A model generated the notes under the pieces. The model had not been told where the DNA came from. It was given only the letters and a program-made list of their open reading frames with translations, and searched no databases. This document shows, one piece after another, positions 44,914 to 53,549 of a DNA stretch of 64,000 bases (within the stretch, counting starts at the first letter, position 1; each line of letters starts with the position of its first letter). Location: positions 372,001 to 436,000 of the forward strand of contig NZ_CP039543.1 in assembly GCF_013085545.1 (NCBI RefSeq), in the 5' to 3' direction. Position numbers and translations under genes: made by a program. This DNA is from Oceanidesulfovibrio marinus. Lineage in GTDB: Bacteria > Desulfobacterota > Desulfovibrionia > Desulfovibrionales > Desulfovibrionaceae.

Positions 44914-46284
44914 TCACTCGGCCGCGATATTGAACTTTTTCATCTGGTTCCAGACCGTGGTGCGGGAGATGCCCAGGGCCCGCGCCGCCTCGGACTGGTT
45001 GCCGTTGGCTGTCTGCAGGGCCTGGACCAGCCGCTGCTTCTTGATCTCGTCGATGTCGCCGGAGATTTGCTGCGGCTCCGGGCAGGCGTCGTTTGCCTTC
45101 TGCGTGATCTCGCCGGGCAGGTTGCCGGGCTCCAGCATGTCGCCGCGGCAGGCGATGAAGGCGTACTCGAAGGCGCTTTTCAGCTCCCGGACGTTGCCCG
45201 GCCAGGCGTAGTTCACCAGCAGGTCCATGGTCTCACGCGCAATGCCCTGAATGTTCTTTCCACTGCGCAGCTTGATGCGGCGGAAGAAGGACTCGGCCAG
45301 CAGGGGGATGTCGCCCTGGCGTTCGCGCAGGGCGGGCATGCGGATGGGGATGACATTGATGCGGTAGAAAAAGTCCCGTCGGAATGAGCCCGCCTCGATG
45401 AGCGCCTGCAGGTCGCGGTTGGTGGCGGAGATGATCCGCGCCTCCACCGGGATGGGCTTGTGGTCGCCCACGCGCTCGATGATCTTGTCCTCCAGCACGC
45501 GCAGCAGCTTGACCTGCGTGCTCAGGGGGATGTCGCCGATCTCGTCCAGAAAGATGTCGCCGTCGCCGGCCAGCTCGAAGCGGCCGGTGCGGCTGCGGTG
45601 CGCGCCGGTGTACGCGCCTTTGACGTGTCCAAAGAGCTCGCTCTCCAGCAGGGCCTCGTTCAGCGCGGCGCAGTTGACCTTCACGAAGGGCTTGTCCTTG
45701 CGCGGGCTGGCCTCGTGCACCGCGGCGGCGGCCAGCTCCTTGCCGGTGCCGCTCTCGCCGTAAATGATCACGGGCGCGTCCGACTGCGCCGCGTTGGCAA
45801 TCATGTCGTAGGCCTTGAGCATGGCTGGGGAGTTGCCGATGAGCCCGTGGTAGGAGTCCTCGGCCAGCAGCACCTTGCGATAGGACTCGATCTGCGTCTC
45901 CTTCTCCAGAAGGTCGCTCACGTCGGTCATGGTCTCCACCGCGCCGATGACCTCACCTTCACCATCCCGCAAGACCTTGGCGTTTTTGAGCACATGCACG
46001 GTGGAGCCGTCTTTGCGCGTCACGGCGCAGCGCTGCTGACGCAGCTCTCCCACCCGGAACATGGCGCACCAGTGGCAGCCCTTGTGGTCGCGGGCGTACT
46101 CGCAGGATGTGCACTTGAGCACGGTGCAGCGCTCGCCGATCAAATCCTGGTGGGAGTAGCCGGTGATGTCCTCGAAGGCGCGGTTGGTGGAGACGATCAG
46201 GCCATCGGGATCGACGATCATCACGCCGTCCTGGATCGTGTTCACCACGGTCTTCCAATACTCGTTGAGGTCGTATGGCTTCAT
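44914..46284 (-). CDS. Sigma-54 enhancer-binding regulator with Cys-rich PAS domain
   Basis: A 456-residue NtrC-family activator. Residues 10-130 are a PAS sensor with a five-Cys cluster (C53, C58, C61, C70, C73), a candidate Fe-S, zinc or thiol switch. The AAA+ domain (about 147-375) has GESGTGKE, GAYTGA (Tyr variant of the sigma-54-contacting loop) and Walker B FLDEIGD. The Fis-type helix-turn-helix is at 415-455 (SEAARALGISRTTVWNQMKK). It diverges from the sulfur-carrier/Hdr operon, whose promoter is sigma-54-like, so it most likely controls that operon in response to redox or sulfur species. Confidence 0.92.
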   Translation of the reverse strand: MKPYDLNEYWKTVVNTIQDGVMIVDPDGLIVSTNRAFEDITGYSHQDLIGERCTVLKCTSCEYARDHKGCHWCAMFRVGELRQQRCAVTRKDGSTVHVLKNAKVLRDGEGEVIGAVETMTDVSDLLEKETQIESYRKVLLAEDSYHGLIGNSPAMLKAYDMIANAAQSDAPVIIYGESGTGKELAAAAVHEASPRKDKPFVKVNCAALNEALLESELFGHVKGAYTGAHRSRTGRFELAGDGDIFLDEIGDIPLSTQVKLLRVLEDKIIERVGDHKPIPVEARIISATNRDLQALIEAGSFRRDFFYRINVIPIRMPALRERQGDIPLLAESFFRRIKLRSGKNIQGIARETMDLLVNYAWPGNVRELKSAFEYAFIACRGDMLEPGNLPGEITQKANDACPEPQQISGDIDEIKKQRLVQALQTANGNQSEAARALGISRTTVWNQMKKFNIAAE

Positions 46285-46291
46285 GGTTCAC

Positions 46292-46341
46292 CTGTTCAGC
46301 TTGTTAACGAAACAGCTGTTCAGAAACATAACAGTTGAACA
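46292..46341. promoter_or_regulatory. Putative upstream activator sites for the sigma-54 regulator
   Basis: CTGTTCAG occurs twice in direct orientation (46292-46299 and 46316-46323). An inverted copy-like element, AGTTGAACA, lies at 46333-46341, and the palindrome AACAGCTGTT spans 46311-46320. The cluster lies 120-170 bases upstream of the -24/-12 promoter, the usual distance for enhancer sites, and next to the regulator's own start, which would also allow autoregulation. Confidence 0.5.
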
Positions 46342-46459
46342 CCCTCTACGCAAGGGGCGTGGCGAATTCTCTGGTCCAGTCACCCCGCTTTTAAAAAAAT
46401 TTACAGTCAATACAAACAGTTGCTGAGTAATGTCGAAAATTCGCCACGGCCCGGCCGCG

Positions 46460-46476
46460 TTGGCACGCATGTCGCT
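46460..46476 (+). promoter_or_regulatory. Sigma-54 promoter of the tusA-hdr-dsrE operon
   Basis: TTGGCACG at 46460-46467, CATG, then TCGCT at 46472-46476, against the consensus YTGGCACGrNNNTTGCW. The GG (46462-46463) and GC (46474-46475) are exactly 10 bases apart as sigma-54 requires. Transcription would begin near 46487, about 40 bases before the first ATG at 46528. Confidence 0.8.
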
Positions 46477-46527
46477 ATTACCCAGGGCAACGATGCAAAC
46501 GATTGGGCACACATGGAGCGAAAGGGA

Positions 46528-46767
46528 ATGGTCCGTGTCGACATCCGAAACTCAATCACCTCTCTGTCCATACTTCAGGTGGAAGCGATCATGAACAGAT
46601 TGCCGCCGGGGGGGAGCATCGAGATCTTGTGCGACGATGAATCGTTCGTGGAGGATCTGAAACGAATCCGGAAGGACTGTTGTTTTGACCATATCAACTT
46701 CGAAGTCAAAGGGCCGTACACGGTAATCACCTTTGTTTTGAAACGAACCACACACAAGGAGATGTAG
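46528..46767 (+). CDS. TusA-fold protein lacking the CPxP cysteine
   Basis: A 79-residue protein of TusA length. The pattern V-D-I-R-N-S-x6-L-Q-V-E-A-I-M-N-R-L-P-P-G-G-S-I-E-I-L-C-D-D follows the TusA fold (helix, PG turn, strand, DD), but the CPxP active site is replaced by ITSLSI. Other cysteines are at the C-D-D strand and a CC pair near residue 50. ATG 46528 has GGAG 9 bases upstream and lies behind the sigma-54 promoter; an ATG at 46513 is also possible. It ends 2 bases before the true tusA. It may bind rather than carry sulfur. The homology is by pattern and should be checked by profile search. Confidence 0.65.
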   Translation: MVRVDIRNSITSLSILQVEAIMNRLPPGGSIEILCDDESFVEDLKRIRKDCCFDHINFEVKGPYTVITFVLKRTTHKEM

Positions 46768-46769
46768 CC

Positions 46770-47024
46770 ATGTCCGAGATCGATCTTTCCACAGTCGAAG
46801 TCAGCAGCACCGCAGATGCGCGTGGCAGCGCCTGCCCTGGCCCTCTTCTCGAAGCCAAGAAAGGCATCGGCAAGGTCAAGGTCGGCGAGATCATCGAGAT
46901 CTACTCCAACGATTCCGGCACCCGGACCGACATCCCGGCCTGGTCCAAGAAGGTGGGCCACGAGTATCTGGGTATGCTCTCCGTGGACGGTTACGACAAG
47001 CACTTCGTCCGCCGGAAGAAGTAA
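46770..47024 (+). CDS. tusA: TusA-family sulfur carrier
   Basis: An 84-residue protein with the catalytic CPGP motif (Cys 22) after DARGSA, then the GEIIEIYSND strand-turn and the R-T-D-I-P-A-W segment. The cysteine carries persulfide sulfur between a sulfurtransferase and an acceptor in the cytoplasm. It is second in the operon, ahead of Hdr-like genes, as seen in dissimilatory sulfur systems where TusA feeds Hdr-like or Dsr enzymes. Confidence 0.9.
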   Translation: MSEIDLSTVEVSSTADARGSACPGPLLEAKKGIGKVKVGEIIEIYSNDSGTRTDIPAWSKKVGHEYLGMLSVDGYDKHFVRRKK

Positions 47025-47035
47025 GCGAGGTAGCT

Positions 47036-47452
47036 ATGGGCCAGGCACGCGTGAACGAGCACGGAAAGATCCTGATTCTGGCGACCGAGAGCTGCGCCTA
47101 TCCGGGCGCGGACTCCGTGGGCCAGGCGCACGCCTCGTATCCGCCCAACACGTACATCCTCAAGGTGAAGGCCCCGGTTCTCTTTCCGGAGCAATTCTAC
47201 CTGGACTGTTTCAAGAAGGGGATCGGCGGAATCATCATCATGTCGTGCGGCGAAGAGTGCCCCTACGAGGGCGCATACAAGGCCATGGCGCAGCGGCTGG
47301 ACAATATCTACGCCCTCATGAAGGAGCAGGGGCTGGATATCCGCAGGCTCCGGCTCACCGCCATCTGCACGGTGTGCAACAGGGCCTTCCTCAACGAAGT
47401 GAATCAGATGAACCAGGTTATCGAGGAGCTGGACCGGCCTACTCAGGCATGA
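47036..47452 (+). CDS. MvhD-like hydrogenase/Hdr iron-sulfur subunit
   Basis: A 138-residue protein of the MvhD/FlpD superfamily: an early C-A-Y-P-G-A-D segment, DCF, the core IIIMSCGEECPYEGAYKAM, and a late C-x2-C (ICTVC). MvhD relatives carry a [2Fe-2S] cluster and pass electrons to HdrA from a hydrogenase or dehydrogenase. No hydrogenase or FloxAB-type dehydrogenase gene is here, so its partner may be HdrA itself or an enzyme elsewhere. GAGG lies 5 bases before the ATG. Confidence 0.82.
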   Translation: MGQARVNEHGKILILATESCAYPGADSVGQAHASYPPNTYILKVKAPVLFPEQFYLDCFKKGIGGIIIMSCGEECPYEGAYKAMAQRLDNIYALMKEQGLDIRRLRLTAICTVCNRAFLNEVNQMNQVIEELDRPTQA

Positions 47453-47521
47453 GCAGGCCGGCCCGGCCCCGGCACACGACAAGCCGCGCCGACCCCGGCG
47501 TGCTTTGTCAGGGAGCACTAC

Positions 47522-48886
47522 ATGGACTCCGCACACGAATACGAGTTTGACGCCATCGTGATCGGAGGCGGCATAGGCGGCCTTCAATCCGCGCTGGACC
47601 TGGCAGACCAGGGCTACCGCACGGCCGTCATAGAGAAGGACGCCTCCATCGGCGGCAAGATGATCAGGCTGTCCAAGGTCTTCCCGACCCTGGACTGCGC
47701 AAGCTGCATCACCACGCCCAAGATGGCCGCCGCGGCGCACCACGAGCAGATAACCCTGTTCACCTACTGCGACGTTAACGATATCGAGCGCAAGGACGGC
47801 GCCATCGAGGCATCGGTAACGCAGCGGCCGCGCTACGTGGACATCGACAAGTGCATCGGCTGCCGCAAATGCGAGTACGAATGCCCGGTCTCGGTGCCGG
47901 ACGTGGAGCAGGGCGGGTTCTCCGGCCGCAAGGCCATCCGCATCCCGTTCTCCAACGCCATTCCGCAAAAGGCCGTGCTGGACGTGACCAACTGCATGCT
48001 CTGCGGCAAGTGCGCCAGCATCTGCCCCACCGGCGCCATCGTCTACAACCAGCAGCCCGAGAGCTACCGGATCACGGCCAAGACCGCGGTCCTGGCCACC
48101 GGGTTCGAGCTGACATCCATCAACGACAAGCGCCAGTACGGCATGGGCGAAATCCCCAACGTCATCGACTCCATGCAGATGGAGCGGCTGCTGGCGCCCC
48201 ACGGGCCCTATGGCCGGGTGCTGCGGCCCTCCGACGGCATGATCCCGGACTCCATTGCCTACGTGCAGTGCGCCGGGTCCCGCGATGCGAGCATGGGCGT
48301 TTCCTACTGCTCGCGGGTCTGCTGCATGTACGCCATCAAGCAGGCCATGCTGCTCTCGGGCTCGCTGCCGCTGGCGGACATCACCATCTACTACATGGAC
48401 ATCCGGGCTTTCGGGAAGAACTACGAGCAGTTCTACCAGAACGCCAAGGCCATGGGCATCGAGTTCGTCAAGGCCAAGGTCGCCTCGCTGGATACGGGCG
48501 AGGACGGCGCCGTGGCGGTTCACTACGAGGATCAGCAAGGCGAGGGCGTTACGACCCGCGAGCACGACATGGTCGTCCTCTCCGCCGGCATGTTGCCCGG
48601 CTGGTCGCCGCAGGGCCAGTGCCCCGTGTCCATCGGCGGGGACGGCTTCATCAAGACCATCCAGCCCAAGACCGGCCCGTCCCTCACCGATCTGGAAGGC
48701 GTGTTCGTAGCCGGCACGGCGGCAGGACCCAAGGACATCGTGGACACCATCACCGAGGCGGGTGGCGCGGCCATGGAAGCCGCAAAGTATCTGACCGCTC
48801 TGCATGAAGACGCCACAGAAGGCCAGTTGGCAAGTTCCCCGCAAGGTTTGGGGGACGAGAGAATCAAGGAGGCCGTCCATGAGTGA
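47522..48886 (+). CDS. HdrA-like FAD/iron-sulfur protein 1 (short form)
   Basis: A 454-residue flavoprotein of the HdrA/QmoA type. The FAD motif IGGGIGG is at 14-20, with the HdrA signature C59-x2-C62 ahead of TTPKM. Two [4Fe-4S] sites follow (C111-C114-C117-C121 and C158-C161-C164-C168), and a VQCAGSRD with YCSRVCCMYAIKQA element is near 255-283. It lacks the extra N-terminal domain of full HdrA. It is cytoplasmic and expected to move or bifurcate electrons. GGGAG lies 6 bases before the ATG; its last 8 bases overlap the second HdrA gene. Confidence 0.9.
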   Translation: MDSAHEYEFDAIVIGGGIGGLQSALDLADQGYRTAVIEKDASIGGKMIRLSKVFPTLDCASCITTPKMAAAAHHEQITLFTYCDVNDIERKDGAIEASVTQRPRYVDIDKCIGCRKCEYECPVSVPDVEQGGFSGRKAIRIPFSNAIPQKAVLDVTNCMLCGKCASICPTGAIVYNQQPESYRITAKTAVLATGFELTSINDKRQYGMGEIPNVIDSMQMERLLAPHGPYGRVLRPSDGMIPDSIAYVQCAGSRDASMGVSYCSRVCCMYAIKQAMLLSGSLPLADITIYYMDIRAFGKNYEQFYQNAKAMGIEFVKAKVASLDTGEDGAVAVHYEDQQGEGVTTREHDMVVLSAGMLPGWSPQGQCPVSIGGDGFIKTIQPKTGPSLTDLEGVFVAGTAAGPKDIVDTITEAGGAAMEAAKYLTALHEDATEGQLASSPQGLGDERIKEAVHE

Positions 48887-50846
48887 CGCAAAGCAAAACA
48901 GCCCCGAAAACGCACCGGCCCCCGAGTCTTTGGAGAACAAGGAGTCGCAGGACCAGGCCAAGGTGGGCGTCTATATCTGCTACTGCGGCGGCAACATCTC
49001 CGACCACGTGGATGTGGAGAAAGTGCGCAGCCGTATGGAGAACGTTCCCGGCGTGGCCGTGGCCAGAACGAACATGTTCATGTGCTCGGACCCCGGCCAG
49101 GAGCTGATCATGGACGACCTCCGGAGCGGGGCCGTCAACCGGGTGGTGGTCGCGTCCTGCGCGCCCAGCCTGCATGAGACCACGTTCCGCTCGGCCATCG
49201 CCCGGGCCGGGGGCAACCCCTACCAGTACGAGCACGCCAACATCCGCGAGCAGGTCAGCTGGGTGCACCACGGCGATGCCGCCACGGACAAGGCCACGCG
49301 CCTGGTTTGTGCGGCCACGGGCAAGGCCCGGCTGATGCAACCCCTGGAGCCACTGCGCGTGGACGCACTGCGTCGCGGCCTGGTCATTGGCGGCGGTGTG
49401 GCCGGCATGCGCTCTGCCCTGGACATGGCCGATCGCGGCATCGAGACTGTGCTTATCGAGAAGTCTCCATACCTGGGCGGCGGCGTCTCCCGGTTAGGAA
49501 AACTGGCCCCCTACGGCGAGGACGCCGAGACCGTGGTCAGGGACCTGGCCGCCAGGACCCTGAGCCACCCGCGCATCACCGTGTACTGCGGCGCGAGCCT
49601 GAGTTCCTACGGCGGCTACGTGGGCAAGTTCTCCATAGAGCTCTCCACAACAGCAGCCGAAGACGAGGCCCCGAGCCCCGGGCAGTACGTTCCGGGCAAG
49701 GGCGTTGGCGGGCCGATGCTGCCGCAGAACATCGCGCTGGAAACCGGCGTGGTGGTCCTGGCTACCGGCTTCTCCTCGTACACACCCCATACCGGCGAGT
49801 ACGGCTTTGGCGAGAACCAGGAGGTCATAACCCTGCCGGACCTGCTCCAGAAGCTGTCGGAAATGAAGGACGAGAAGGGCGGCCAGCTGCATCTGGACGG
49901 CCGGCGCATCCGCAGCCTGGCTATCATCCACTGCGTGGGCAGCCGGCAGATTCCCGGAGTCCACGAGGAAGACGAGAACGGGCACCTGAACGAGTACTGC
50001 TCGCGGGTCTGCTGCTCGGCCTCCATCAACGCGGCCAACACCATCCGCGAGTCCTTCCCGGACACCTCCGTGTACGAGCTGTACCGCGACATCCGCACCT
50101 ACGGCCGCGGGCAGGAGGAGATGTACGCCCAGGCCTCGGCCAACCGGGTGGTCTTCATGCGCTTCAACGTGGAGGAGCCGCCTGTGGTGCGCCGCATCGC
50201 CGGCGAGTATCCCCTGGAGATCGAGGTGAAGGACGAGCTGACCTTTGGCGAGGAACTGCAGGTCCCGGTGGATCTGGTGGTCCTGGCCACAGGCATGGAG
50301 CCCGCGCCCATCCACGACCTGGTGGACATGCTCAAGCTGCCCGTGGGCGCGGACCGCTTCCTGCTGGAGGTGCATCCCAAGTTGCGGCCGGTGGAGCTGC
50401 CCATGGCCGGCGTGTTTCTGGCCGGCACCTGCCAGGCGCCCATGGACGTGGGCGAGGTCAGCAACGCCGCGTCGTCTGCGGCGGTCAAGGCCGTCTCGCT
50501 CCTGGGCAAGGGCTTTGTGGAGCTCGATCCATTCGTGGCCGAGGTGGACCTGCAGAAGTGCACAGGCGCGGGCGCCTGCGTGGACGCCTGCCTCAACGAC
50601 GGCGCGCTCAAGCTGGTCGAGATGGAGGTTGGCGGCGAGACCGTGACCCGCGCGGAGGTGACGCCCGCCCTGTGCCTCGGCTGCGGCGCATGCGTGGCGG
50701 TCTGTCCGGAAAACGCAATCAACGTCAACGGTTGGACTCTGCGTCAGTACGAATCGATGGTGGACATGATCATCTCCGACGTCGCCTTTGAGGACTCTGG
50801 GGAGGCCAAGGAAGAACCCGCCGTCGAAGAAGAGACAGCCGCCTGA
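48879..50846 (+). CDS. HdrA-like FAD/iron-sulfur protein 2 (long form)
   Basis: A 655-residue HdrA homologue. The N-terminal domain (VGVYICYCGGNISDHVD, CS-DPGQ, SCAPSLHE) is that of full HdrA. The FAD site VIGGGVAGM is at 169-177, followed by HCVGSRQ with YCSRVCCSASINAA. Two C-terminal ferredoxin clusters are CTGAGACVDAC and CLGCGACVAVCPENAI. The first of these has Ala where the second Cys spacing is usually Cys-x-x-Cys-x-x-Cys, so one cluster may be altered. The ATG at 48879 has AAGGAGG 6 bases upstream. With the short HdrA it could form a heterodimer. Confidence 0.9.
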   Translation: MSDAKQNSPENAPAPESLENKESQDQAKVGVYICYCGGNISDHVDVEKVRSRMENVPGVAVARTNMFMCSDPGQELIMDDLRSGAVNRVVVASCAPSLHETTFRSAIARAGGNPYQYEHANIREQVSWVHHGDAATDKATRLVCAATGKARLMQPLEPLRVDALRRGLVIGGGVAGMRSALDMADRGIETVLIEKSPYLGGGVSRLGKLAPYGEDAETVVRDLAARTLSHPRITVYCGASLSSYGGYVGKFSIELSTTAAEDEAPSPGQYVPGKGVGGPMLPQNIALETGVVVLATGFSSYTPHTGEYGFGENQEVITLPDLLQKLSEMKDEKGGQLHLDGRRIRSLAIIHCVGSRQIPGVHEEDENGHLNEYCSRVCCSASINAANTIRESFPDTSVYELYRDIRTYGRGQEEMYAQASANRVVFMRFNVEEPPVVRRIAGEYPLEIEVKDELTFGEELQVPVDLVVLATGMEPAPIHDLVDMLKLPVGADRFLLEVHPKLRPVELPMAGVFLAGTCQAPMDVGEVSNAASSAAVKAVSLLGKGFVELDPFVAEVDLQKCTGAGACVDACLNDGALKLVEMEVGGETVTRAEVTPALCLGCGACVAVCPENAINVNGWTLRQYESMVDMIISDVAFEDSGEAKEEPAVEEETAA

Positions 50847-50878
50847 TCCATAAGGTCAGATTTATAAGGAAGGACCCC

Positions 50879-51190
50879 ATGGCACACGAACAGACACAAG
50901 GCGTTTTGGACAAGGAAGCGATGAAGGCGTTGCGCGGCGAGCGCAAACAGTGGGTGGAGGCCGCCTCCGCAAAGTCCCGCGAAAGCAGGAAGGCGATCAA
51001 GGCCGTGAAGGAGTTTCTGGCCAAGGACAGCGCTACGGTGCCGGAGATTGCCGAGGCCGCCGGCCTGCCCACGGACAAGACGCTCTGGATCATCGCCACA
51101 ATGCGCAAGTTCGGCCAGGTGGCCGAGGCCGACAAGGACGGCAGCTACTACCGCTACGCCCTGACCGGCACGGATGCGGGCGACGAGTAA
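50879..51190 (+). CDS. Small winged-helix-like protein in the Hdr operon
   Basis: A 103-residue protein with a basic helical N-terminal half and a winged-helix-like segment (TVPEIAEAAGLPTDKTLWIIATMRKFG) followed by a beta wing (GSYYRYALTG). It has no cysteines. Small helix-turn-helix proteins of this kind occur inside Hdr-like gene sets, where they may be structural or regulatory. AAGGAAGG precedes the ATG. Function unknown. Confidence 0.7.
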   Translation: MAHEQTQGVLDKEAMKALRGERKQWVEAASAKSRESRKAIKAVKEFLAKDSATVPEIAEAAGLPTDKTLWIIATMRKFGQVAEADKDGSYYRYALTGTDAGDE

Positions 51191-51239
51191 TGCGGACGAT
51201 TCCAAACCGCCGTACGCCTTTACGTTAAGGAGAATCAAG

Positions 51240-51542
51240 ATGGCCACGGTCAATTCCGAGTTCATCAAAGAGCTGGAACAATCCGGCACAGATACCGGAG
51301 CCGAGTGTTTTAACTGCGGCACGTGCGCGGCGATATGCCCCCTGGTCTCGGACCATTTTCCCAGGAAGATGATCCGCTACATCCAGATAGGGGCCGAGGA
51401 TCTGATCCTGAAGCACGCGCAGGAGCTGTGGCGCTGCCTGCATTGCGGGCTCTGCACGCAGACGTGCCCCCGGGGCGCCAACCCGGGCGAAGTACTCATG
51501 ACCCTGAAACGGCGCGTCGTGGCCGAGTGGAGGAGGTCCTGA
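51240..51542 (+). CDS. HdrC-like [4Fe-4S] ferredoxin subunit
   Basis: A 100-residue protein with two [4Fe-4S] motifs in HdrC arrangement: C-x2-C-x2-C-x3-C-P (CFNCGTCAAICP) and C-x2-C-x2-C-x3-C-P (CLHCGLCTQTCP), separated by a helical linker. It carries electrons between HdrA and HdrB. AAGGAG lies before the ATG at 51240. Its stop overlaps the HdrB start (TGATG), implying stoichiometric synthesis. Confidence 0.9.
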   Translation: MATVNSEFIKELEQSGTDTGAECFNCGTCAAICPLVSDHFPRKMIRYIQIGAEDLILKHAQELWRCLHCGLCTQTCPRGANPGEVLMTLKRRVVAEWRRS

Positions 51543-52468
51543 TGTACAATCCAAGGGACATCATAGAGGTTCTGGCCGACAACGTGCGCAAGACCATGAG
51601 CCCGTTCGGCGTGCCCAAGGGCATGGTCAACACGTGGTGGAAGGACCAGAAGCTGGACAGGGACGGCGACGCCCTGCTGATGACCGGTCTGATGTACCAG
51701 TTCGTGCCGTACATCGAGACGGCCACCAAGCAGCTGGAACGGTTCGAGGACACCAGGTGGATGTCGTATCTGGGATACGCGCGCTTCGTGCCCAAGCTCA
51801 TCTCCGGCGCCGGCCTGGCCATGCTCACCCCGGCGGCCGGCAAGCAGAAGGCCGGCCAGTACCTCAAGGATATCGTCAAGGTGCTGCGCAAGTCCGGGCA
51901 GAGCTTTGGCTACCGGCCCGAGCTGGACGAGTACAGCGGCATCCTGCTGTACGACCTGGGCGACCAGGAGAGCTTTGTCCGCCATGCCGAGCGCGTGGCC
52001 GAAAAGCTGCTCAAGGCCGGCGTGCACAAGATCATCACCATCGACCCGCACACGACCTATGCGCTCAAGGTGCTGTACCCAAAGTATGTGGGCGCGTCCT
52101 TCGAGGTGCACACGTACTTCGAGAACCTCACCCTGCACGGCGAGAACGGCGGCAAGAAGCTGACCCTGCACGATCCCTGCTTCTACGGCCGCTATCTGGA
52201 ACTCTCGGACAAGCCGCGCAAGGCGCTGCAGGATCTGGGCTACGAGTGCGTGGATGTGCGCGAGTGCGGCACCTACACGAGCTGCTGCGGCGGGCCGGCC
52301 GAGTCCATCTCGCCCAAGCTGTCCTCCCAGATCGGCTCGCGGCGGCTGGAGTCCCTGGACTCCACAGGCGAGCAGGTCGTGGCCATGTGCCCGATCTGTC
52401 TGAATAATCTTGAGAAATCCGGCGCAAACATCGTGGATCTTTCCACGGTGCTGGCCAACAGCGTGTAA
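51542..52468 (+). CDS. HdrB-like CCG-domain catalytic subunit (single CCG)
   Basis: A 308-residue protein. Only the C-terminal half carries the cysteine-rich CCG motif (HDPCFYGRYL ... TSCCGGPAE ... CPICLNNL), which binds a noncubane [4Fe-4S] cluster that splits disulfides. The N-terminal half has no cysteines, unlike canonical HdrB with two CCG units, so it is closer in cluster content to DsrK or HdrD-type subunits. It is the likely place where sulfur-sulfur chemistry occurs. GGAGG precedes the ATG. Confidence 0.88.
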   Translation: MYNPRDIIEVLADNVRKTMSPFGVPKGMVNTWWKDQKLDRDGDALLMTGLMYQFVPYIETATKQLERFEDTRWMSYLGYARFVPKLISGAGLAMLTPAAGKQKAGQYLKDIVKVLRKSGQSFGYRPELDEYSGILLYDLGDQESFVRHAERVAEKLLKAGVHKIITIDPHTTYALKVLYPKYVGASFEVHTYFENLTLHGENGGKKLTLHDPCFYGRYLELSDKPRKALQDLGYECVDVRECGTYTSCCGGPAESISPKLSSQIGSRRLESLDSTGEQVVAMCPICLNNLEKSGANIVDLSTVLANSV

Positions 52469-52501
52469 CCGAATAATCAACCCGCAAGGAAGGGAAGAGC
52501 C

Positions 52502-52876
52502 ATGTCCGAGAAACAGGAAAAGATTCTGTATATCGCCACCCACGCCAACGACGACCCCGAGAAGGCCCACCTGCCGTTCGTGCTGGGCAACGCAGCCCTG
52601 GCCATGGATATCCAGGCCACTGTGGTGCTGCAGTCCAACGGCGTGTACCTGGGTAAGAAGGGCTTTGTGGACAACATGGTGGCCGGCGGCGGGTTCCCGC
52701 CCATCAAGAAGCTGATGGAAGACTTCCGCAGCCTGGGCGGCGAGATCAAGGTCTGCAAGCCGTGCATCGCCGAGCGCAACATCGACGAGAGCGAACTCAT
52801 CGAGGGTGCGGAGACCACGGCCGGCGGCGCAGTCAACGTGGCGGCCATCGAGGCCGACGCCGTGTTCGTATTTTAG
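52502..52876 (+). CDS. DsrE-family sulfur carrier
   Basis: A 124-residue DsrE/DsrF-fold protein. It opens KILYIATHANDDPEKA and has VVLQSNGVYLGKKG and the Cys pair C85-x2-C88 (VCKPCIAER) at the position of the DsrE active-site cysteine. It accepts sulfur from, or passes it to, TusA in the cytoplasm. The strong AAGGAAGGGAAGAG leader precedes the ATG. An 11-bp hairpin separates it from the dsrE2-like gene. Confidence 0.88.
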   Translation: MSEKQEKILYIATHANDDPEKAHLPFVLGNAALAMDIQATVVLQSNGVYLGKKGFVDNMVAGGGFPPIKKLMEDFRSLGGEIKVCKPCIAERNIDESELIEGAETTAGGAVNVAAIEADAVFVF

Positions 52877-52926
52877 CCGGCTGTTGAGAATCTCCGGCTG
52901 GCTGCGTTGCAGTCCGAGCCCCAGAA

Positions 52927-52952
52927 GCGGAGAGAGGATTGCCTCTCTCCGC
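52927..52952. other. Perfect 11-bp hairpin between dsrE and dsrE2
   Basis: GCGGAGAGAGG and CCTCTCTCCGC enclose a 4-base ATTG loop, 50 bases after the dsrE stop and 36 bases before the next ATG. No T run follows on plus (ATTGATTATT), so it is a weak terminator at best and may act as an attenuator or RNA-processing and stability element inside the operon. Confidence 0.6.
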
Positions 52953-52988
52953 ATTGATTATTGAAGCATTTTACAAGGATGGCGTATT

Positions 52989-53549
52989 ATGGAAGCCGAT
53001 CTCATGCAGAATCTCGAAAAACGCATCGCACTCTTGGAAGAACGCATCGAGGAGATGCAGGCGCGGATGCCCGAGGACCAGCTCTCGATGGTTGTGTTCA
53101 GCGGCGAGCTCGACCGCCTGCTGGCGGCGTTTATCATCGCCGTGGGCGCGGCCGCGATGTACGACCGCGTAGTGATGTTCATGACCTTCTGGGGAACCAC
53201 GGTGATGCGGGACCCGGCCAAGACCGTATCCAAGCCGGAGTTCACGGCCAAGATGTTCGACAAGATGCTGCCCAGCGGACCGGACGGCGTGCACCTTTCG
53301 CGCATGGACATGTTTGGCATGGGACGCAGGATGATGAAGTCTATCATGAAGAAGAAGGGCGTCCTCTCGCTGGACGATCTGATTCGGCAGGCCGCGGATT
53401 ACGGCGTGGAGATCGTGATCTGCGAGATGTCTCTGGATGTCATGGGCCTGTCCGCGGACGAGCTGCGCGACTACCCCAACATCACCCTGGCCGGGGTTGC
53501 CAAGTTCCTGCAGGAGGCCAACCAGAGTGCCGTGACCCTGTTCATATAA
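52989..53549 (+). CDS. DsrE2-like (DsrE/DsrF/DrsH superfamily) protein
   Basis: A 186-residue protein. An N-terminal coiled coil (residues 1-28) is followed by a DsrE2-type domain: MVVFSGELDRLLAAFIIAVGAAAM, FMTFWGTTVM, the M-F-G-M-G segment and one cysteine (C145) in ICEMSLDVMGL. Hydrophobic stretches suggest membrane contact. DsrE2 genes accompany tusA and Hdr-like genes in sulfur oxidisers, which supports a sulfur-transfer role. AAGGAT precedes the ATG. Last gene of the operon. Confidence 0.87.
   Translation: MEADLMQNLEKRIALLEERIEEMQARMPEDQLSMVVFSGELDRLLAAFIIAVGAAAMYDRVVMFMTFWGTTVMRDPAKTVSKPEFTAKMFDKMLPSGPDGVHLSRMDMFGMGRRMMKSIMKKKGVLSLDDLIRQAADYGVEIVICEMSLDVMGLSADELRDYPNITLAGVAKFLQEANQSAVTLFI

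Follow-up and report, generated by a model that had tools for sequence, protein, structure and literature searches.

The 64,000-nucleotide stretch of Oceanidesulfovibrio marinus DNA analysed here (hereafter the window; positions 372,001-436,000 of a single-contig, 4.76-Mb genome) contains ten open plus-strand genes, at window positions 46513-53549, that encode TusA- and DsrE-type sulfur carriers together with the subunits of an Hdr-like redox complex. The gene for a sigma-54 enhancer-binding protein lies divergent from this operon. Domains of the operon proteins were assigned with Pfam and NCBIfam models, and the starts of TusA1 (46513), HdrA-long (48879), HdrC (51240) and HdrB (51542) were refined. 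The features are as follows.

44914-46284, minus strand: sigma-54 enhancer-binding protein with PAS, AAA+ and Fis helix-turn-helix domains (Pfam Sigma54_activat 1e-68, PAS, HTH_8)
46461-46476, plus strand: sigma-54 promoter TGGCACGCATGTCGCT (GG-N10-GC; TGGCACG-CATG-TCGCT), from a pattern scan
46513-46767, plus strand: TusA1, a divergent TusA-fold protein without the CPxP cysteine (Pfam TusA E=6.6e-6, below the curated cut-off)
46770-47024, plus strand: TusA2, a canonical TusA sulfur carrier (Pfam 8e-17)
47036-47452, plus strand: FlpD/MvhD-like electron-transfer subunit (Pfam 5e-20; ICxVC invariant)
47522-48886, plus strand: HdrA-short (HdrA2 model 9e-133)
48879-50846, plus strand: HdrA-long (HdrA2 model 1e-136)
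50879-51190, plus strand: small winged-helix protein of 103 amino acids (no Pfam match; predicted fold)
51240-51542, plus strand: HdrC with two [4Fe-4S] clusters (4Fe-4S dicluster; QmoC/HdrC models)
51542-52468, plus strand: HdrB with one CCG domain (CCG 1.7e-10)
52502-52876, plus strand: DsrE with a CxPC motif (Pfam 4e-16)
52927-52960, plus strand: strong terminator-like hairpin (11 pairs, 8 of them GC) in the 112-nucleotide dsrE-dsrE2 gap
52989-53549, plus strand: DsrE2-like protein (Pfam DrsE_2 9e-46)

From 5' to 3', consecutive operon genes are separated by 2, 11, 69, -8, 32, 49, -1, 33 and 112 nucleotides; gaps within the conserved core described below range from -8 to +69, and the overlapping pairs are hdrA-short/hdrA-long and hdrC/hdrB. 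HdrA, HdrB and HdrC have no clear membrane anchor or strongly hydrophobic segment, DsrE likewise has no clear anchor, and hydrophobicity reveals no clear transmembrane pair in DsrE2, where the signal is borderline. An earlier sequence-only reading had proposed a tightly spaced, ten-gene plus-strand set encoding a cytoplasmic device; the open frames, single strand, domain content and lack of clear anchors all agree with that description.

Conservation, control and distribution of the operon

A GTDB contig scan identified 251 HdrB relatives, and 80 loci were fetched from these; several of the named loci are the same records as loci with G handles, and the two sets are not independent. The core order tusA-flpD-hdrAshort-hdrAlong-wHTH-hdrC-hdrB-dsrE is complete in 41 of the 80 loci. 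Another 34 agree with it but are incomplete, mostly at contig ends, and in the remaining five, which are of Desulfobulbales type, dsrE has moved upstream to the front. Other fetched contigs repeat the order, save at contig ends and in fragmented frames. The core gene set is a real conserved unit. The sequence-only reading had listed a gene order not conserved in relatives among the outcomes that would refute its proposal; the order in fact recurs across Desulfobacterota.

The sigma-54 site ahead of the operon differs at one position from the Desulfovibrio consensus tGGcacg...tTGCt (PMC4641369), scores highest and sits at the floor set by 200 shuffles of the intergenic sequence. When two mismatches are allowed, the pattern occurs across the whole window no more often than chance would give; support for the promoter that had been suggested from the sequence comes instead from its intergenic location and its conservation, as a site upstream of tusA is individually significant in 42 of 51 loci. 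The ortholog of the enhancer-binding protein is divergent or adjacent in many loci. Four cysteines of its PAS domain (C53, C58, C61 and C73) are kept in 34 of 34 sequences and a further one, C86, in 33 of 34, a five-cysteine motif that could possibly serve as a metal, Fe-S or thiol sensor.

Distribution is sporadic. Of the 297 genomes searched in the order, 9 have an HdrB ortholog, and the other searched genome of the window's genus has none. Across the phylum sample, 26 of 395 genomes have HdrB matches, of which 22 were kept as true carriers; weak matches (30-33%; L080, L081 and the like) lack the operon and were excluded from statistics. Carriers identified by name in the GTDB contig scan include Desulfobacter vibrioformis, Desulfospira joergensenii, Desulfosarcina widdelii, D. 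cetonica, Desulfacinum hydrothermale, D. infernum, Desulfamplus magnetovallimortis, strain NaphS2 and Desulfoferrobacter suflitae. Within the phylum sample, 20 of the 22 carriers encode dsrA, compared with 168 of 373 non-carriers (Fisher p=2.4e-5, a value that ignores shared ancestry). aprA scores above cut-off in 25 of 27 carriers. YeeE/YedE-family genes, whose products are possible importers, are found in 19 of 25 carriers, including the window genome.

The window genome encodes dsrA at 3.40 Mb and aprA, adjoining qmoABC, at 2.18 Mb, which is 1.76 Mb from the operon. Because dsrA, aprA and qmoABC are all present elsewhere, the operon adds to the metabolism of a sulfate reducer and does not replace it, and the absence of Dsr and Apr genes from the window, noted by the sequence-only reading, proves uninformative. 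Its option of disproportionation is not required either, as many carriers are ordinary sulfate reducers, and for the same reason we rejected the operon as a marker of disproportionation.

HdrB-profile matches also occur in archaea (13 of 197 genomes in the phylum of L135), and were rejected as instances of the operon: eight fetched regions lack TusA, FlpD and HdrA partners. These partnerless single-CCG HdrB genes (L178-L185), in Archaeoglobales-like genomes, probably belong to a lactate-dehydrogenase-type cluster, in agreement with PMC3949148. The sole archaeal-labelled contig with the operon is L135 (1232-9526), from a metagenome-assembled genome labelled Archaeoglobaceae, where it stands behind genes of the DsrE family and one resembling CoA-disulfide reductase, and may owe its presence to transfer or to mis-binning.

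Redox subunits and sulfur carriers

The sequence hallmarks of the HdrABC superfamily are present: HdrA-type FAD/Fe-S subunits, an HdrC dicluster protein and an HdrB with the CCG non-cubane cluster motif. All eight HdrC cysteines are kept in 24 of 24 sequences, and the HdrB cluster residues (C213, CC248-249 and CxxC283-286) are invariant. HdrA-short matches HdrA residues ~142-562, comprising the FAD/TrxR domain with an inserted 2x[4Fe-4S] ferredoxin and DCxxC and CxxxCC motifs, and lacks the N- and C-terminal HdrA domains. HdrA-long has an N-terminal Fe-S domain, the FAD/TrxR domain and a C-terminal ferredoxin, with neither the inserted ferredoxin nor the DCxxC motif. Because the domains are split between the two proteins and their Fe-S and FAD-proximal cysteines are almost all invariant, HdrA-short and HdrA-long look like complementary halves of a heterodimer. 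In an HdrA tree that holds one Qmo pair (the window genome's own) and is badly rooted by an L015 input that is probably in the wrong frame, each is monophyletic (support 1.0), each includes the distant clade described below, and neither joins QmoA or QmoB. The gene for the 103-residue protein, modelled as an ArsR/MarR-like winged helix after a long N-terminal helix (predicted local distance difference test score, pLDDT, 90), always lies between hdrA-long and hdrC (53 sequences).

Other observations concern HdrA genes. L163 (6673-10119) encodes a 1149-residue tandem HdrA resembling HdrL, elsewhere in its genome at ~628-631 kb, and L003 and L004 place an HdrA gene at 1.59 Mb and 2.73 Mb with identical match scores, which suggests duplication. 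In Desulfobacter and Desulfospira, a candidate in-frame selenocysteine stop in HdrA-long was rejected, as there is no stop and the hidden Markov model matches are merely split.

Among the carriers, the CPGP motif of TusA2 and the CxPC motif of DsrE are invariant in the alignments, and the first DsrE cysteine aligns with the cysteine of the DsrE-family structure 3mc3. TusA1 is different. Its AlphaFold model (pLDDT 79) comes closest to E. coli TusA (3lvj) and a SirA-like protein (3hz7), at 1.8-2.1 Å, but TS replaces CP in the motif and the catalytic cysteine is lost, so that, judging from its sequence, TusA1 cannot carry persulfide on the usual residue. About half of 63 loci have a TusA1-type domain encoded upstream of tusA, with CPWC in some and the cysteine lost in most, and in L031-L035 the TusA1 and TusA2 domains are fused in one frame. 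The dsrE2 gene lies beyond the terminator-like hairpin and is present in few relatives. Of the ten genes grouped by the sequence-only reading, those from tusA2 to dsrE form the core; DsrE2 and the degenerate TusA1 are best regarded as accessories outside it.

The first cysteine codon of the DsrE CxPC motif is TGA, in an otherwise intact frame, in 13 loci, which amount to nine distinct records when duplicate copies are discounted; examples are L067 (7642-8004), L147 (1800-2168) and L076 (near 1994). Predicted hairpins in the RNA 3' of the TGA have folding energies of -11 to -21 kcal/mol, compared with -7 to -17 at the matching place in cysteine-encoding homologs. selB is present in all five UGA-DsrE genomes checked, and also in genomes with a cysteine DsrE. 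The in-frame UGA is a putative selenocysteine codon, at a position where one would be expected of a redox-active site. The UGA concerns relatives only, as the window's own DsrE has cysteine. Standard annotation would truncate the UGA-bearing genes. A DsrE-like UxxC protein of unknown function appears on a published list of selenoproteins (PMC13188914); the UGA-bearing DsrE appears to fit this type, and the operon is a possible genomic home for it.

A distant clade (L074, L076-L079) keeps the core order at ~30-55% identity and has a longer HdrA-short of 700-890 residues. In L079 (11693-13948), the member that was domain-scanned, GltD/NfnB-like Fer4_20 and Pyr_redox domains lie between the two ferredoxin clusters, and this GltD-like module would tie the Hdr complex to NAD(P)H. 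An ArsR-type gene directly precedes tusA in three of these loci, which is neutral for a role in defence (see below). The 2,025,450-bp L079 genome is putatively that of Dissulfurimicrobium hydrothermale Sh68, for which the same figure is published (PMC8780430). This organism is an obligate sulfur disproportionator that carries the YTD gene set, and its TusA (LGS26_05795) and DsrE (LGS26_05760) are listed as having unknown function (PMC8780430). We infer that the span of tags from LGS26_05760 to LGS26_05795 fits the eight genes of this operon.

Proposed function and rival explanations

We propose, with a probability of roughly 0.6, that the product of the operon is an Hdr complex, soluble and cytoplasmic, which forms or cleaves S-S bonds of sulfane sulfur held on DsrE and supplied by TusA, probably in the reductive direction and with flavin-based bifurcation. 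TusA2 would receive persulfide, supplied by polysulfide, thiosulfate or an importer of the YeeE/YedE type, and hand it to DsrE, whose CxPC or UxPC pair could hold the sulfur as a persulfide or an internal trisulfide in a DsrC-like fashion. The single non-cubane [4Fe-4S] cluster of HdrB would then make or break the S-S bond, with H2S released or taken up. Electrons would pass from HdrC through the FAD of the HdrA-short/HdrA-long heterodimer, which probably bifurcates, to FlpD or ferredoxin, or directly to NAD(P)H in the distant clade. Upon a signal, the cysteine-rich PAS activator and sigma-54 would turn the operon on.

Two-electron S-S chemistry on DsrE/TusA at HdrB is favored as the simplest reaction in which all of the invariant parts have a use. 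A DsrE with two motif cysteines and a single-CCG HdrB parallel DsrC and DsrK. Sulfane-sulfur reduction can power flavin bifurcation, whereas reduction of NAD(P)+ by reduced sulfur is uphill; these energetics and the missing lipoate-binding protein of sHdr systems favor the reductive direction. In a sulfate reducer, the most likely direction is thus from sulfane sulfur to sulfide, coupled to ferredoxin reduction, and in disproportionators the complex may run in reverse or beside reverse Dsr. For a different TusA/DsrE pair, persulfide transfer from TusA to DsrE has been demonstrated in vitro (PMC13293266). Several points weigh against our proposal. The direction of electron flow is not readable from sequence, TusA and DsrE-like proteins also act in biosynthesis, and a single-CCG HdrB also occurs in Archaeoglobales by the lactate-dehydrogenase-type cluster, so the substrate cannot be assigned from the CCG subunit by itself. 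Furthermore, YeeE/YedE genes are unmatched in 6 of the 25 carriers, and the count of 19 has no baseline. The coupling of persulfide from DsrE/TusA to Hdr electron transfer, as the sequence-only reading had it, is plausible and gains from the gene order, promoter, invariant motifs, dsr/apr link and the carrier that is a disproportionator; TusA1 and DsrE2 fall outside the core parts, and disproportionation is not needed.

The same parts could be assembled into other functions. An oxidative, sHdr-like device would convert DsrE/TusA persulfide to sulfite or DsrC-ready sulfur and pass electrons to NAD(P)+, ferredoxin or quinone, whether for sulfur oxidation or for the oxidative branch of disproportionation. 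Sulfur-oxidizing sHdr loci also combine TusA, DsrE and Hdr subunits (PMC6067878), the distant form occurs in L079, the putative D. hydrothermale (PMC8780430), and many sulfate reducers have been argued to be able to oxidize sulfur by a different TusA/DsrEFH set (PMC13293266). We nevertheless consider this function unlikely, given that the operon has a single HdrB and HdrC in place of B1/B2 and C1/C2 pairs, that no lipoate-binding protein accompanies it, the genome's only GCV_H gene being ~0.94 Mb away, that carriers are commonly ordinary sulfate reducers, and that NAD(P)+ can be reached by electrons of reduced sulfur only uphill.

A role in sulfane-sulfur defense or redox homeostasis, with inducible stripping of surplus persulfide from thiols and no growth-supporting respiration, would suit both the dedicated cysteine-rich PAS activator with its sigma-54 promoter and the sporadic occurrence within the order (9 of 297 genomes), but near-restriction to dsr/apr genomes and the presence of bifurcation-type subunits suggest an energy role and make this explanation quite improbable. 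Still harder to credit is a Qmo-like electron shuttle to adenylylsulfate (APS) reductase with TusA and DsrE as regulators or mere passengers. The architecture does resemble QmoA plus QmoB(MvhD) plus QmoC, and in some Desulfobacterales a second set of QmoA-like, QmoB-MvhD-like, HdrC and HdrB genes lies directly downstream (L092, 10486-14657; L084, L087, L096, L112 and L113). By contrast, HdrA-short and HdrA-long form clades separate from QmoA and QmoB, the window genome already has qmoABC beside aprA, and the catalytic cysteines of TusA2 and DsrE are invariant.

More broadly, and only tentatively, the operon could encode an undescribed, DsrC-independent flavin-bifurcating Hdr enzyme acting on a CxPC/UxPC DsrE to which sulfane sulfur is bound as persulfide or trisulfide. 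Such an enzyme would supply the missing cytoplasmic link between S0, polysulfide or thiosulfate on one side and ferredoxin/NAD(P)H on the other, both in sulfate reducers and in at least some disproportionators. The operon is a testable candidate for the intracellular processing of elemental sulfur, polysulfide or thiosulfate by sulfate reducers; it recurs across Desulfobacterota, occurs in cultured strains and has its own regulator and promoter, making one gene set amenable to direct tests.

Comparison with known systems

We found no description of this gene set in the open-licence literature, in line with the sequence-only reading, which knew of no characterized complex of such composition; the set is widely conserved yet apparently undescribed. 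The nearest described systems are sHdr (PMC6067878), the YTD/DsrEFH type II sets (PMC13293266, PMC12998232), Qmo variants (PMC10504309) and HdrL (PMC2702500).

Like sHdr (hdrC1B1AhypC2B2-lbpA), the operon encodes Hdr subunits together with TusA and DsrE-type carriers, and cytoplasmic sulfane sulfur is the likely substrate of both. However, lbpA is inevitably associated with sHdr (PMC6067878), whereas no gene for a lipoate-binding protein lies in or near this operon; the sole GCV_H-family gene is at 1.36 Mb and the operon at 0.42 Mb. Furthermore, one single-CCG HdrB and one HdrC stand in place of the HdrB1/HdrB2 and HdrC1/HdrC2 pairs, and the operon has two unlike HdrA proteins plus FlpD, sigma-54 control and sulfate-reducer carriers. 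Judged by gene content, the operon is not the sHdr system, and the contrast that had been drawn on the lipoate-binding protein holds.

Two unlike HdrA-type flavoproteins, an MvhD module and HdrC/HdrB modules are shared with QmoABC and QmoAB-HdrBC. Here, by contrast, the HdrA proteins form separate clades, MvhD is unfused, the membrane heme subunit QmoC is absent, with HdrC and HdrB encoded separately, and TusA/DsrE genes are the neighbors instead of aprAB, aprA being 1.76 Mb away. The FlpD/MvhD-HdrA-HdrC-HdrB chain with its CCG non-cubane cluster also recalls FlxABCD-HdrABC and MvhADG-HdrABC, but the operon has no Flx, Mvh or Fdh donor, its HdrA is split into short and long forms, and the inferred substrate is a DsrE/TusA carrier, not DsrC or CoM-S-S-CoB.

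With YTD (yedE-tusA-dsrEFH type II), the operon shares TusA and DsrE proteins in sulfate reducers and disproportionators. Its gene content is not the yedE-tusA-dsrE-dsrF-dsrH set, as it has no yedE, its DsrE has CxPC and it is built on an Hdr complex; D. hydrothermale has both systems (YTD according to PMC8780430). Finally, HdrL fusions in Desulfobacterium autotrophicum offer a precedent for linking HdrA with an NAD(P)H module of glutamate-synthase type, a feature shared with the distant clade, but HdrL loci carry fdh, mvhD or dsr genes (PMC2702500), whereas the operon described here pairs its Hdr subunits with TusA and DsrE.

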